64,000 bases of DNA from the NCBI RefSeq assembly GCF_018603515.1, contig NZ_JACATN010000002.1, positions 806,001 through 870,000 of the forward strand, given 5' to 3'. A model generated the notes under the pieces. The model was given only the letters and a program-made list of their open reading frames with translations. It had not been told where the DNA came from and did not search any database. Source of the DNA: Zobellia barbeyronii. GTDB taxonomy: Bacteria; Bacteroidota; Bacteroidia; Flavobacteriales; Flavobacteriaceae. The translations under genes and the position numbers were made by a program. Below, piece after piece: positions 37,481 through 43,375 of the stretch; positions within the stretch are counted from its first letter, which is position 1, and each line of letters opens with the position of its first letter.

Positions 37481-38671
37481 TTAATTATCTGTAACCTTTA
37501 TACCCAATGGCTGATTTAAACGCTCAGCATAATTTTTAATGACCTTTACAGGGGATTCTGAACCTACTGGAAAAATTAAATAAGCATTTTTCTCATAATA
37601 CTGACTTCCGACCGGAAAAGTCTGAATAGTATCAGATAAAACTCTATTCCAATATCTACCATTATTTGAAGATTTGGTAATCTTAGTGTATGGATTATGC
37701 ATTGGAGAAGGCCCTCCTTTAGTATTTGTATTATCATACTGAAGACGTATTGAACCAAAACCGTAACCTTTTTCCAAATTATAAAAAGCCAACCAAGGCG
37801 CATCATCAGTAACATGATTTTCTTCTAAAACATCTAGTTCATCAGAATATAGATTTAATCGTTTAATTGTACCGTCTTTTTGAGCGTAGGCGAGATGAGT
37901 AAAGAGACTATCCATGGTCATTTCATCATTCCGTAAGAGATTTAGTTCCACTTCTTTTTGAACCGAAATCATAGACTCAAATAAAAAATAGGGTAGATTA
38001 TCATAAAACTCATAACGTCCTTCAATTAGAATTTCCGGCACACTATCCGTGATACCTGAGCGCTCCTTAATTACACGGTATTTCTCTACTTCTATAAGAT
38101 TTTTAGAATCCGGTCGTAAATCTTCTAAATTGAAATACAACTCTGAACTACTTTTAGAAAAATTAGGAGCCCAATGCATTGCAATGTGGCTTCTTTTTAA
38201 GAGCTGATTTTTAAAGTTCTTCAACTCTATTCCATTTACTTGTCCGCCGCGTTTATCATCTTCTGTACTAAAAGTAGCTTTGTAATACTTATTTTCTATA
38301 ACAAGATTATCATCGGATAGCATTTGCTGAACAGGTAATGAACTCTTCTTTTTTTCTTGAATACTAATATTGAATTTTTTGGATTGATTTGCCGTAACCG
38401 CAACCGGAAAAATAATTGAATATTCAAATCGGTTTTCAATTTCAGCAAAAGCTATATCATCTACCGGTATTACAGAACCATCTTCTGAATCCATAGCTAC
38501 GAACACTTCATTCTCCTTTAATTTATTACCTAAACTAATTATTGGGTTTACATATTCTAAAGGACGGTCTAAGCCTGCAGTTTCTGAAACAATAATGATA
38601 GGCATCTTATCTGGTGTAGAACAACCAGCAATCAATACGATTAAAACAATGTATTTAATTAGGTTTCTCAT
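37481..38671 (-). CDS. Uncharacterised lipoprotein, possibly DUF4861
   Basis: 396 aa. Lipobox LIVLIAGC17 predicts a lipoprotein. The body is all-beta, with patterns like LVIENKYYKATFSTEDDKRGGQVNGIE and YEFYDNLPYFLFESMISVQ that resemble DUF4861 proteins found beside pectin and uronic-acid genes; I am not certain of the family. It ends a cluster of five same-strand genes and is 16 nt after the Gfo/Idh/MocA gene. A carbohydrate-binding or lyase-like role is possible but unproven. Confidence 0.7.
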   Translation of the reverse strand: MRNLIKYIVLIVLIAGCSTPDKMPIIIVSETAGLDRPLEYVNPIISLGNKLKENEVFVAMDSEDGSVIPVDDIAFAEIENRFEYSIIFPVAVTANQSKKFNISIQEKKKSSLPVQQMLSDDNLVIENKYYKATFSTEDDKRGGQVNGIELKNFKNQLLKRSHIAMHWAPNFSKSSSELYFNLEDLRPDSKNLIEVEKYRVIKERSGITDSVPEILIEGRYEFYDNLPYFLFESMISVQKEVELNLLRNDEMTMDSLFTHLAYAQKDGTIKRLNLYSDELDVLEENHVTDDAPWLAFYNLEKGYGFGSIRLQYDNTNTKGGPSPMHNPYTKITKSSNNGRYWNRVLSDTIQTFPVGSQYYEKNAYLIFPVGSESPVKVIKNYAERLNQPLGIKVTDN

Positions 38672-38687
38672 TCTTAAACTAATTCAT

Positions 38688-39986
38688 TTATAACACAGGA
38701 ATTCCTGGTTTAGGGATCACATAATTACCATCTTCCAATGGTGCATTAGGCATTTTCATATCCCAAGAAAATTCAGAAGGGACTATACTTAAATTAGAAG
38801 CTTTCGCCTTTTCTAAATCAATAATTTCACCAGATTCAATTGCCATTCTACCCATTATGGTAGTCATAGAGCTTTCAGCACCATACTTAGTATTATTTAC
38901 ATAGGGTTTATCTCCTAAGATTGCTCCTATAAACTCATCTTGTTCTATTTGAGAAGACGATGGATCATCTTTATCTCTGTATCTCCAAAGCGAATTTCCT
39001 TTTAAATCAACCATCTGGAAACGTTCATCGGCTTTACCTTTTGAACCTTGAATATTAAAACCTAACCTATTGGCACAATTATCCATTTGTCTACACTGCA
39101 CATGTAGTTTTGTACCATCTGCATACTCATATTCTACATAATGATGGTCAAATATTTCTCCATGGTCAGGTCCTTTTAGCATTGCCCTACCTCCCATTCC
39201 ACTTGCTTTGATGGGGTAATTTTTTTTAATCCAATTAACCACATCAATTTGGTGAATGGCCTGACCAGCAAGCTGACCGCCCCATAACCAATTAAAATAA
39301 TGCCAATTGCTAATTTGATATTCCAATTCCGTTTGACCTGGCTTTCGAGGATGTACCGTGGCCAAGCCAATGTTATAATACACATCCATAGAAAGAACGT
39401 CTCCAATATCACCTGCATGAATTTTTTCCACCATTTTATTGAGCGCAATTTCATAGCGGGATTGTAGACCTACCACAACATTTAATTTCTTCTCTGTCGC
39501 CAATTTTCCGGTCTCTATAATCCTTCTATATCCAGGACCATCAACAGCCAATGGTTTTTCTAGAAAGACATGCTTGCCCGATGCTATGGCGTATTCAAAA
39601 TGATCAGGTCTAAAACCAGGTGGTGTAGCCAAAATTACCGCATCACATTCATCAATGACTTTCTTATAAGCATCTAAACCTAAAAACTGACGTTCTCCTG
39701 GCACGCTGACTTGTGTTGGAAAATCTTTAGAAACCCTTTGAAAACTATTGTCCAGCTCATGTTGAAAAACATCTCCCATTGCTACTAACTCAACAGATTT
39801 TGATGCCGTCAAAGCTTGAAATATAGCGCCGGTACCACGACCTCCACAGCCCACTAAACCTAATTTTATTTTTTCTTGCCCAAAGACATTAGCATTTGAA
39901 AAAACAGGAAGATGACTGAAAACCATCCCGGCTGCTACTGTTTTTGAAGTTTGTTTTATAAATTTTCTCCGTGGATTAGTTTTCAT
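38688..39986 (-). CDS. Gfo/Idh/MocA oxidoreductase with Tat signal
   Basis: 432 aa. A twin-arginine signal (PRRKFIKQTSKTVAAGMVF) indicates export to the periplasm with bound NAD(P), as in glycosidase-like or sugar-modifying members (GH109-like proteins). Rossmann motif GLVGCGGRGTGAIFQ, then VFLEKPLAVDGPG with the conserved EKP, and NWHYFNWLWGGQLAGQAIHQIDVVNW in the substrate domain. Second of the five-gene cluster from the 3' end. It may oxidise or isomerise a sugar at the outer face before uptake; activity not shown by sequence. Confidence 0.88.
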   Translation of the reverse strand: MKTNPRRKFIKQTSKTVAAGMVFSHLPVFSNANVFGQEKIKLGLVGCGGRGTGAIFQALTASKSVELVAMGDVFQHELDNSFQRVSKDFPTQVSVPGERQFLGLDAYKKVIDECDAVILATPPGFRPDHFEYAIASGKHVFLEKPLAVDGPGYRRIIETGKLATEKKLNVVVGLQSRYEIALNKMVEKIHAGDIGDVLSMDVYYNIGLATVHPRKPGQTELEYQISNWHYFNWLWGGQLAGQAIHQIDVVNWIKKNYPIKASGMGGRAMLKGPDHGEIFDHHYVEYEYADGTKLHVQCRQMDNCANRLGFNIQGSKGKADERFQMVDLKGNSLWRYRDKDDPSSSQIEQDEFIGAILGDKPYVNNTKYGAESSMTTIMGRMAIESGEIIDLEKAKASNLSIVPSEFSWDMKMPNAPLEDGNYVIPKPGIPVL

Positions 39987-40045: not shown

Positions 40046-41113
40046 TTACAGTCCTTTCAACCAATTTTCTATGTTATCCCTAACAAAATCATCATCATTT
40101 AAATGCGGGTAATCATTATAAACTCTACTGATTTCTTCATTCTGACCTATAGACAATTTTTCATTTTCATCTAAACACCAAATCCCTTTTAAAAGTCCCT
40201 GTCTTCTTAGCACCTCATGAATACCTGCAATACACCCTTCAAAATTATTGGCCGAATCAAAAAAGGCTGCATTGCTATCTGTAACTGCTATATTTAAGGT
40301 CATTGCTTCTTTGGGTATGGTGGTCCCTGATTCTTTTATTCTATGAATTTCCTCTAAAAGAGAAACAGCCTTATTCGTCCAAACAGCCCAATGCCCCAGT
40401 AACCCTCCTACAATATCTTTTTTGATGACTTTCCCTTCAACAGTTATTTTATAGCTTGTCAAAAGATCAGCTACTATATTATCATCATTACCTGTGTATA
40501 ATGCAATTTCATCACAACGTGATGATGCACATACAGCACGTACCACCTCTAAAGTTTGATACCTATTAAACGGTGCCATTTTTATAGCTAGAACATTTTC
40601 AATCTCCGAAAAGGCCTTCCAAAAATTATAACTCAAAACCCTACCACCCACTGCTGGTTGTAAATAAAATCCGAATACGGGTATGATTTCGCTAATTTTA
40701 GCTGCTCGTTCCAATAATGCCTCTTCTGACCAATCTCCTAAGCCATTTGTACTTACCAAAACAATATCATAACCTAATTCCGCACAGATTTTAGCCTCAT
40801 TCACAGCTTGTTCCGTATTACCACTAACGCCAGCTACTTTTATAAAAGGGCGGTCTAGATTAGCTATTGTAATTTCCTCAATAGCCAGTTGTAATACCTT
40901 TTTATAAAGGTTGATTTTTGGGTCTCGTATTTGGAATTGTGTTGTATGAACACCTATTGCAATACCTCCTGCGCCTGAAGCCATATAATATCTGGTCAAC
41001 AATCGTTGACGTTTCTCATCCAGCTCACGACCTTCTGTCAATCCCAGCGGATGGGCAGGAATTACAGTACCTTGTTGCAATAATTGTTTTAATACAGGGT
41101 CTAAAGTCTTCAT
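40046..41113 (-). CDS. Dihydrodipicolinate synthase/NAL-superfamily lyase
   Basis: 355 aa, longer than DapA (~290). Class I aldolase barrel with Schiff-base lysine K178 in VLAIKMAPFNRYQ and a tyrosine in FGFYLQPAVGG; the start ITVIPAHPL-like segment (TVIPAHPLGLTEG) and GAGGIAIGVHTTQFQIRDP are characteristic of a Bacteroidota/Planctomycetes subgroup of unknown substrate. Candidate roles are cleavage or dehydration of a 2-keto-3-deoxy sugar acid. It follows the epimerase gene by 22 nt. Confidence 0.82.
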   Translation of the reverse strand: MKTLDPVLKQLLQQGTVIPAHPLGLTEGRELDEKRQRLLTRYYMASGAGGIAIGVHTTQFQIRDPKINLYKKVLQLAIEEITIANLDRPFIKVAGVSGNTEQAVNEAKICAELGYDIVLVSTNGLGDWSEEALLERAAKISEIIPVFGFYLQPAVGGRVLSYNFWKAFSEIENVLAIKMAPFNRYQTLEVVRAVCASSRCDEIALYTGNDDNIVADLLTSYKITVEGKVIKKDIVGGLLGHWAVWTNKAVSLLEEIHRIKESGTTIPKEAMTLNIAVTDSNAAFFDSANNFEGCIAGIHEVLRRQGLLKGIWCLDENEKLSIGQNEEISRVYNDYPHLNDDDFVRDNIENWLKGL

Positions 41114-41135: not shown

Positions 41136-42155
41136 TTAAAAATCTCCTTTTCGTTCTTGAAAATGCGTTGGTTTACCTAATTGCTCCCCTCCAATTTTGA
41201 CCCAATTAGCTGTCCACTTTATCATATCTTGCAGTGAGGTCGTGGGTTTTCCAAATAAACTGTAAGCCCCGCTTGAATTATTCAGCAATGCTGTTTCTGC
41301 AGGCTTATTTTCAAAAATGGTTTCTATCTTAAGTAATTTACCAAATTCTTCTGCCAACCATTGTATTGATATGGTTTCCGGGCCGGTCACGTTTAATTTT
41401 CTGGCTGGTGATTCACAATGTAAAAGGGAACGTATAGCATATTCATTAGCATCGCCTTGCCAAATAACATTGGCGAAACCCATACTTAAATTTATAGGCT
41501 TCTGCTCTATTACCGCCTTTGCGACTTCTAACAAAACTCCGTACCTAAGATCAAGTGCATAATTTAACCGGTACAATAGCATTTCTGTTCCGTTTTTAAC
41601 CGAAAAATGTTCAAATACACGTTCACGTCCCAAGCAAGATTGCGCATATTCACCAATTGGTGAAGGTTTTACCTCTTCCGTAGCACCACCACTTTTAATA
41701 GGCATAAACGGATATATATTACCGGTAGAAAAAACAACTATTTTTGATTCCTTATATTTTTCCGAAACTCTACCCGGAAGGTAAGCGTTCATTGCCCAGG
41801 TAAAATGCTCATTACCCGATGTACCAAACTTATTACCCGCCATATAAATAACGTTTTTAACCTTTGGAAGCTTCATCAACGCTTCATCATCCAATAAATC
41901 TACCTTGATACATTCTATACCAAAATCCGTTAATTCTTGAAATAGATTTTGATTTGAAAAGCGAGAAGCGCCTATTACTTTTTTTGTGCTTCCTGAAGCA
42001 TCAATTGCTCTTTTCGCGAGCTTTGCCAAAGTAGGCCCCATCTTTCCCCCCAAACCTAAAATCATTATATCACCTTCAATTTTACTGATATCTTCTATTA
42101 ATCGTTTTGAAGGTTTAGAGAGTTGTTCCTCTAATTCGGCTATTGTAGCTATCAT
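41136..42155 (-). CDS. NAD-dependent epimerase/dehydratase-like protein with altered active site
   Basis: 339 aa extended SDR with Rossmann motif ILGLGGKMGPTLAK (32-45) and a C-terminal pattern (NVTGPETISIQWLAEEFGKLL) seen in nucleotide-sugar epimerase relatives. The catalytic YxxxK is Y170-A-Q-S-C174: the lysine is replaced by cysteine. It may bind NAD(P) without normal SDR chemistry or use a different mechanism. It lies 11 nt after the Nramp-like gene and 22 nt before the DapA-like gene. Confidence 0.8.
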   Translation of the reverse strand: MIATIAELEEQLSKPSKRLIEDISKIEGDIMILGLGGKMGPTLAKLAKRAIDASGSTKKVIGASRFSNQNLFQELTDFGIECIKVDLLDDEALMKLPKVKNVIYMAGNKFGTSGNEHFTWAMNAYLPGRVSEKYKESKIVVFSTGNIYPFMPIKSGGATEEVKPSPIGEYAQSCLGRERVFEHFSVKNGTEMLLYRLNYALDLRYGVLLEVAKAVIEQKPINLSMGFANVIWQGDANEYAIRSLLHCESPARKLNVTGPETISIQWLAEEFGKLLKIETIFENKPAETALLNNSSGAYSLFGKPTTSLQDMIKWTANWVKIGGEQLGKPTHFQERKGDF

Positions 42156-42166
42156 AGATTTCTAGT

Positions 42167-43375
42167 TTATTTAATAAATATGTTATAGGTGTTTGCCCCT
42201 GCTAATAGCACTAGCATTACCAATCCTAAAATCATAATAATATTCAATGTTGTACTTAATTTAAAAAAGTGTTTTGCCGCTCTATCCCGTGCAATCATAA
42301 AAATCATAAAGCCAATTACAGGAACAACTATGATGGTAAAACCTTGAGCCATAATTATAAGCTGTATAGGTAAATTTCCAAAAATTATAGCAACGGCTGC
42401 GCCAATCAATATGACCGACATTATCACATACCGTACATTTTGGGACTCTAACTTTCTACCAATATTTAGAGCATCGGATAATAAAACACCACCCAAAGTT
42501 GCGTTCCCGATTAGGGAAGAAAAAGAAGCTGCAAACAAACCGAACATAAATATTACAGTGGCATAACTACCAAATATTGGTTCTAACGCTTTACCCATTT
42601 CTGCAGCAGAATTAACCTGAATTCCCTGGGGATAAAGTACCGAAGCAGCAACCAACATAACTGTAGCTGTTATTACTCCAAGAATAAATACGCCGGATAA
42701 ACTTTCTCTTTCATGTGACTTGGACTCACTCTTATCCCATCCTTTTTCTTGGACTAGATACGACTGATAAAATGCTCCTGCAATTGAAAAGCTGGAAGCC
42801 ACTAAAGCCAGAGCCAAAAACTCTGAACCACTTGGTAATTCAAAATTAAATTGCTGTATTAAAAGTGAAATATTAGGCTTTGAAATTATTAGAGTTAGTA
42901 CAAATGAAACCAGCATTAAAACAACCATGCCAATCATAATTTTTTCTAGAATCTTAAAAAATGATTTAAAAAATAGCAAAATGATAGCAATCACGGAAAA
43001 TCCAATTATCCATGGCACAGGTGATACATTGAACATTTCACCGAACACCATACCAGCGCCAATTGAGTTACCTGCCTGAAAAGAAGCTGATACTATAAAA
43101 AGACCTACGCCAATAACAATACAAATTGTATTGCCATATTTTTCACGTATCAGTTCAATAAGTGTTTGTTTTGAACTTAACCCTATTCGAGTAGAAACTA
43201 TGGTGAAAGCCGCCATAAAAAGAATACAAATAGGCACTACCCAAAGTAACCTAAATTCATAGTTAGCCCCAATTTTAGAGCCTATTGCCAAACTACCTGG
43301 TCCCAAAACTAAAGCTGCAGTAATAAAGCCTGGACCTATTAGACTAAGTATATTCTTCTTTTTTCTATCTGTCAT
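42167..43375 (-). CDS. Nramp-fold transporter lacking the metal-binding motifs
   Basis: 402 aa, 11 or so transmembrane helices; GPGFITAALVLGPGSLAIGS aligns with Nramp TM1, but the metal-binding DPGN reads G25-P26-G27-S28. In TM6 the usual MPH/TPY segment is IAGAFYQ (198-204). Both metal-coordinating loops are therefore lost. It is the first gene of the cluster with an SDR, a DapA-like lyase, a Gfo/Idh/MocA enzyme and a lipoprotein. Transport of a sugar acid or other organic solute rather than Mn/Fe is a reasonable hypothesis; it is inferred from motif loss and context only. Confidence 0.85.
   Translation of the reverse strand: MTDRKKKNILSLIGPGFITAALVLGPGSLAIGSKIGANYEFRLLWVVPICILFMAAFTIVSTRIGLSSKQTLIELIREKYGNTICIVIGVGLFIVSASFQAGNSIGAGMVFGEMFNVSPVPWIIGFSVIAIILLFFKSFFKILEKIMIGMVVLMLVSFVLTLIISKPNISLLIQQFNFELPSGSEFLALALVASSFSIAGAFYQSYLVQEKGWDKSESKSHERESLSGVFILGVITATVMLVAASVLYPQGIQVNSAAEMGKALEPIFGSYATVIFMFGLFAASFSSLIGNATLGGVLLSDALNIGRKLESQNVRYVIMSVILIGAAVAIIFGNLPIQLIIMAQGFTIIVVPVIGFMIFMIARDRAAKHFFKLSTTLNIIMILGLVMLVLLAGANTYNIFIK

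Follow-up and report, generated by a model that had tools for sequence, protein, structure and literature searches.

An Nramp-related carrier of Zobellia barbeyronii and its relatives lacks the canonical metal ligands, pairs with an SDR-like and a DHDPS-like enzyme, and is a candidate importer of small organic acids

The gene at 42167..43375 (minus strand) of the window, meaning the whole 64,000-nucleotide stretch of Zobellia barbeyronii DNA that was analysed, encodes an Nramp-related carrier of 402 aa with a predicted LeuT fold. Frame 1 of the plus strand contains stops throughout the same interval. The protein belongs to the Nramp superfamily, matching Pfam PF01566 with 218.4 bits (cut-off 29.8) and NCBIfam Nramp_1 above its cut-off, and a 97% identical protein is encoded on a Zobellia uliginosa contig. 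As an earlier note on this DNA had described, the carrier gene heads a tight, co-directional run of five genes that is divergent from a GH28 gene. From the carrier on, the intergenic gaps are 11, 22, 59, and 16 bp. The four downstream genes, all on the minus strand, encode an SDR-like protein (339 aa; 41136..42155), a DHDPS-like protein (355 aa; 40046..41113), a Gfo/Idh/MocA oxidoreductase with a twin-arginine-like N-terminus (432 aa; 38688..39986; PF01408, 40.5 bits), and a protein of unknown family that looks secreted (396 aa; 37481..38671). The earlier note called them carbohydrate enzymes. The label is in part presumed, because two of the four, the SDR-like and secreted proteins, have no Pfam match at E ≤ 0.001.

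A sequence search of solved structures gave nothing useful for the SDR-like partner. Its model (pLDDT 92.6) has an extended-SDR fold, and Foldseek matches it to TerB, UDP-sugar epimerases, and SDR oxidoreductases. The motif YxxxK of SDRs reads YxxxC in this protein, with Cys in at least 80% of sequences in one comparison and at least 90% in another. Lacking the usual catalytic Lys, it is perhaps no ordinary dehydrogenase. The DHDPS-like partner, of the class I aldolase/lyase superfamily, scores 23.0 bits against PF00701 (cut-off 22.1), and a search of solved-structure sequences returned weak DHDPS matches alone (best E 6.4e-6). Its conserved blocks retain K178 and Y150, which we take to correspond to the Schiff-base lysine and the catalytic tyrosine of DHDPS. 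The functions of both enzymes are putative. A crude hydropathy and twin-arginine scan indicates that neither is generally exported.

The carrier and these two enzymes form a near-obligate pairing. Their linkage was followed in a non-random clade set that combines the window, the best 80 of 260 matches, and L036, L037, L039, and L040. Since L036 and L060 are one record, the set holds 84 distinct loci rather than 85, spanning Bacteroidota, Balneolota, and Bacillota. The ORFs of these loci were clustered by BLAST. The SDR-like partner is present at 76 of the 84 loci (67 in the carrier's same-strand run) and the DHDPS-like partner at 73 (63 in the run); these figures describe this clade alone. At each of the three loci with just one partner, the contig breaks off downstream of the carrier after no more than about 1.7 kb. 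Eight loci show neither partner, and in three of them (L062, L067, and L081) the sequence stops at the carrier or no more than 0.5 kb from it. All eight genomes except that of L092 were searchable, and six of these seven contain a DHDPS-like gene elsewhere (those of L071, L101, L062, L075, L081, and L089); none was found in the 11.2-Mb assembly behind L067. When the DHDPS-like gene lies away from the carrier, an SDR-like gene, or its visible part, adjoins it in L164, L165, L174, L180, L181, and L182; no such gene was called in L179.

The pairing extends to sampled genomes. Carriers in the family sample (199 genomes) were taken as the clade plus its sisters of 36-37% identity, at a cut-off chosen after inspecting the match list (E ≤ 8.3e-72; next match 1.5e-40). 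Six genomes encode a carrier (G000, which is the window's own, G011, G018, G115, G129, and G184), and exactly the same six encode the DHDPS-like protein (E ≤ 1e-50). The phylum sample (395 genomes) shares G000 and some other genomes with the family sample. Here, the carrier (E ≤ 1e-55) and the DHDPS-like protein (E ≤ 1e-50) occur in an identical set of five (G000, G348, G352, G487, and G361), spread over four different families, and G361 carries them on separate contigs. The chance of identical sets would be about one in 8.0e10 (family) and 7.8e10 (phylum) for independent genomes, which these are not. The carrier is absent from G001, another genome of the same genus.

The remaining neighbours vary among species. 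The window's Gfo/Idh/MocA cluster is present at 16 of the 84 loci, with a twin-Arg-like start in 15 of 16. The secreted protein (7/84 loci) looks exported in all eight rows from the seven distinct loci and has no Pfam, NCBIfam, or meaningful PDB sequence match. LacI-cluster regulators occur in 11 of 84 runs, and one representative was confirmed as LacI. Of the 84 loci, 2 hold the GH28 and GH43 clusters, the window itself and a locus of Zobellia uliginosa. The galacturonate link implied in the earlier note, and a pectin substrate with it, are therefore weak and not supported for the clade, and a galacturonate or pectin substrate was rejected as a general reading.

A wider view comes from a Pfam scan based on 162 genes, taken up to four per side within the same-strand run at loci other than the window, L036, L039, and L040, with proteins above 900 aa left out. 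One gene was chosen for each of 76 clusters, four cut by contig ends were dropped, and 72 were scanned. Further Gfo/Idh/MocA proteins, M20 amidohydrolases, glucose/sorbosone dehydrogenase, enolase-superfamily proteins, and glucosamine isomerases are among the variable neighbours, and galactonate dehydratase and NagA match above NCBIfam cut-offs. These neighbours suggest that a compound of the acid or amino-sugar type is broken down, without agreement on one substrate. Metal-homeostasis genes, which the earlier note had proposed to look for outside this genome, are absent from the 25 of 102 Pfam families listed for the 72 scanned neighbours; the annotated ones are metabolic. In three Paenibacillus loci (L164, L179, and L181), the carrier-distant DHDPS-like gene adjoins an L-serine ammonia-lyase-like gene. 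The single one scanned, L164, has a serine ammonia-lyase beta subunit above the NCBIfam cut-off beside the partner pair. A protein of about 440 aa adjoins the module in five Bacilli loci (L099, L106, L113, L120, and L165). Its GGDEF-GdpP-like or GTP-cyclohydrolase-IIa-like match is weak (L106 and L165), and it is possibly the module's regulator.

The AlphaFold2 model of the carrier (mean pLDDT 85.8), computed from 47 aligned sequences, shows 11 TM helices on our reading, with breaks in TM1 at residues 24-25 and in TM6 at residues 196-197. Foldseek ranks 1 to 29 are all Nramp-family structures. EleNRMT (7qia; TMq 0.85) is first by E-value, DraNramp (6d91; TMq 0.87) is fourth, and the integrative YcsG model (9a52; TMq 0.79) is sixteenth. 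The YcsG model was matched by fold and is absent from the sequence search of solved structures. Amino-acid carriers and others follow, such as ApcT (3gia; TMq 0.68).

The substrate site departs from that of canonical MntH/Nramp proteins, although the fold is common and the TM10 Gln is kept. Fifty-six Nramp-type proteins were aligned with E. coli MntH as the reference. In TM1, MntH D34-P35-G36-N37 align exactly with carrier G25-P26-G27-S28 (codons 43292..43303, minus strand), in agreement with the change from DPGN to GPGS reported earlier. In TM6, M209, P210, and H211 align with S197-I198-A199 (codons 42779..42787, minus strand). The MPH motif is absent, as had been claimed, but the segment quoted as its replacement, IAGAFYQ, begins one residue late. 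The A/CxxMPH pattern of TM6 reads S194-xx-S197-I-A in the carrier, and the proton-pathway residues of TM3 are changed from D109 to Q100 and from E112 to N103. The canonical metal ligands are missing from all 84 distinct relatives compared: Gly is at the TM1 Asp position in 84/84, and Met at 197 and His at 199 in 0/84. G25, P26, N103, Y203, Q204, N291, and Q344 are invariant, and Q100 is present at 83 loci, with Glu at the remaining one. The fourth TM1 position, canonically Asn, is Ser at 61 loci (GPGS) and Lys at 23 (GPSK). All GPSK forms are from Bacteroidota, and all 23 of their loci hold both the SDR-like and DHDPS-like partners.

The chief rival reading is Mn supply, in which the carrier would import Mn2+ or Mg2+ through a non-canonical site and feed a metalloenzyme of the cluster. 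The GPSK forms weigh against it: with Lys at a metal-ligand position in 23 of 84 loci, it is hard to see how a divalent cation would be bound there. SDR and DHDPS enzymes, the classes of both near-universal partners, are also metal-independent. In favour of metal supply, metal-dependent classes (M20 and sulfatase) are near some members. A search of the window's own genome with PF01566 and E. coli MntH as queries found no canonical DPGN Nramp, which slightly favours a metal importer and means that a Mn role is not absurd. However, the carrier is rare (5/395 phylum genomes) and absent from G001, which weighs against a general Mn route.

Published systems also bear on Mn supply. Feeding of a metalloenzyme has been proposed for MumT, with urea carboxylase as the enzyme, and possibly holds for MntG; both belong to the Nramp family and are encoded in catabolic operons. 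An important role in Mn accumulation is reported for mumT, and MumT is less than 25% identical to reported NRAMPs (PMC5050338). MntG/YcsG is a reported Mn importer: its overexpression increases the Mn content of cells, and an mntH mntA ycsG triple mutant proved unobtainable unless a covering copy was present (PMC10448178). In the work of Ray et al., MntG falls into the "G-motif 3" group (PMC12873925). Relatives reported to raise cellular Mn are thus in print, which goes part of the way towards the counter-evidence named in the earlier note, GPGS-type homologues shown to transport Mn or Mg. Changes at the metal site have also been reported. EcoDMT tolerates several binding-site changes, and the mutants named leave the TM1 Asp unaltered. 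By contrast, Mn transport by DraNramp strictly requires Asp at D56 (PMC13060092), and D38A drastically impairs BfraNramp (PMC12873925). On this evidence, Mn or Mg import is unlikely, though it is the strongest competitor of organic-acid import.

The sequences separate the clade from its relatives. In a quick maximum-likelihood tree (IQ-TREE, SH-aLRT support alone, long branches flagged) built from 56 proteins, the window clade has 29 rows (SH-aLRT 99) and, together with three sister proteins of 36-37% identity, 32 rows (SH-aLRT 96). A PxpT-like group (7 rows, SH-aLRT 99; 5/7 pxp-adjacent), a GTGS group (9 rows, SH-aLRT 99), and a DPGN group including E. coli MntH (5 rows, SH-aLRT 100) are also recovered, and the deeper branching order is weakly supported. 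The clade is accordingly judged, from sequence comparison, to be distinct from canonical Nramps and from PxpT/YcsG-type and GTGS-type relatives. In a published rooted phylogeny, Nramp-related proteins are paraphyletic with respect to canonical Nramps and branch below them (PMC12873925). For this reason, the earlier statement that the carrier has lost its metal residues is doubtful and probably reverses the polarity. It is more likely that canonical Nramps gained the metal site than that the window clade lost one.

PxpT of C. glutamicum is the closest precedent for a carrier of this kind. Its deletion abolishes growth on 5-oxoproline, plasmid-borne pxpT restores it, and the authors leave metal transport open as well (PMC13274462). 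The precedent is genetic because a search of that text gave no mention of an uptake assay, radiolabel, transport assay, or manganese. The need for PxpT in growth on 5-oxoproline, together with the LeuT fold that amino-acid carriers share in the Foldseek matches, counters the earlier suggestion that organic solute transport would be new for this fold. Like PxpT/YcsG (MntG), the window carrier has the Nramp fold and lies beside cytosolic catabolic enzymes. The pxp-adjacent relatives, which stand in here for PxpT/YcsG themselves, also share Gly at the TM1 Asp position with the window clade.

These likenesses raise the question of whether the carrier is a PxpT/YcsG orthologue importing 5-oxoproline. 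The PxpT-like group gives the next-best matches after the clade in the family search, at about 30% identity, and 23 of the 24 loci L012-L035 contain pxpA and pxpB matches; in L044, the three pxp proteins match LamB/YcsF and two carboxyltransferase families. However, pxpA/B/C matches occur in 0 of 80 clade loci (L051-L130) and are absent from the window, where the partners are SDR-like and DHDPS-like rather than PxpABC. The site residues differ as well: TM1 reads GPGT in the pxp-adjacent relatives and GPGS or GPSK in the clade, TM3 has Glu versus Gln, and TM6 has VPYN versus SIAG. The two types form separate tree groups (SH-aLRT 99 each), and both are present in Zobellia uliginosa. Orthology was rejected on group membership and pxpABC linkage, and import of 5-oxoproline by this route is highly improbable.

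Other known systems share single features with the locus. EleNRMT, a Mg2+ transporter, is alike in fold (TMq 0.85), but the NRMT motif is DxxG in TM1 with TxxA/T in TM6 (PMC8806188), whereas TM1 of the carrier reads GxxS, so that it is not an NRMT. Ray et al. (2026) sort Nramp-related proteins, which likewise lack the TM1/TM6 and proton-pathway residues, into groups that include "G-motif" ones, and the groups other than NRMT-like and MntG are called uncharacterized (PMC12873925). The carrier has Gly at the D56 position, as "G-motif" would need if its meaning is read from the figure legend. The available text of that article describes neither the partner linkage nor the GPSK subgroup. In xylonate-type operons of Salmonella, a transporter and a dehydratase likewise accompany a DHDPS-type aldolase, but the carrier there is of the MFS type and the dehydratase of the dihydroxy-acid type, whereas the window has an Nramp-type carrier and an SDR-like protein instead (PMC12445098). 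Nramp-family carriers in catabolic modules are thus a known kind. In the literature searched, which mostly excluded subscription journals, no description of the carrier's linkage to the SDR-like and DHDPS-like enzymes was found. A "Nramp, metal-ion transporter" is labelled inside the alginolytic systems of Alteromonas (PMC6431674) and is a possible further Nramp-type carrier in a uronate cluster.

Taken with the predicted fold, the site residues and the partner linkage are easier to explain by uptake of a small organic acid than by uptake of a metal. The carrier is probably, at about 0.7, an inner-membrane importer of a sugar-acid-, amino-sugar-acid-, or N-acyl/imino-acid-like compound. We infer the substrate, the direction of transport, its coupling, and the order of the reactions from these features. 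The unwound, glycine-rich TM1 (GPGS/GPSK), together with Q100, N103, Q204, N291, and Q344, would form a neutral or positive pocket for the carboxylate and the hydroxyl or amide groups of the substrate, and the carboxylate would rest where this glycine-rich helix is broken. In APC amino-acid carriers, a glycine-rich TM1 holds the substrate in a similar way. The carrier may alternate by the usual bundle movement of the LeuT fold. Species-variable secreted or periplasmic enzymes (Gfo/Idh/MocA, glycosidases or sulfatases, and SusCD) would supply the substrate. Once imported, the acid may be handled first by the SDR-like protein, and the DHDPS-like Schiff-base enzyme would then cleave or dehydrate it to central metabolites such as pyruvate.

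Because sequence gives no direction of transport, the protein might instead be an exporter or a transport-dead sensor of the pathway. A full-length carrier with 11 predicted TM helices and core polar positions invariant in 84/84 loci argues against this, and import is in keeping with the exported-looking enzymes that the run encodes. Nramps import, and PxpT is inferred to do so. An exporter or sensor is therefore quite improbable.

Further Nramp-related carriers accompany the clade. The window's own genome encodes two GTGS-type paralogues. One (G000:C32:253618-254691; L048:7511-8785) adjoins a lyase of the chondroitinase-B type (PF14592, 589 bits) and has a pair of TonB-dependent receptor and SusD genes close by, and the other (G000:C36:78817-79881; L049:7722-8984) adjoins a phosphomannose-isomerase-like protein. 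Arg is found at the canonical TM6 His216 column in 9 of 9 GTGS-type proteins compared. GTGS-type and GPGS-type carriers also share a single gene run, alongside NagB-like and M20 proteins in L036:681-10600 and alongside NagA in L038:7296-14580 and L094:7406-11191 (the same record), as if one cluster needed two Nramp-related carriers.

A broader proposal, which we offer tentatively and with the odds against it, is that Nramp-related proteins whose TM1 has Gly where Asp is canonical make up a large family that imports organic anions, with a separate catabolic module for each clade. The modules would be the SDR-like and DHDPS-like enzymes in the window clade, 5-oxoprolinase for PxpT, and amino-sugar or uronate clusters for GTGS-type carriers. 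Metal transport would then be derived, gained at the change from Gly to Asp in TM1.

If the window clade carries an organic acid, database labels that call its members divalent-metal transporters are wrong, and the cargo of uncharacterised Nramp-related proteins becomes approachable through a concrete enzyme pair. This pair would mark a catabolic step common to Bacteroidota and Bacilli and undescribed in the literature searched. The origin of metal selectivity in Nramps could then be examined as something acquired by a scaffold for organic solutes.
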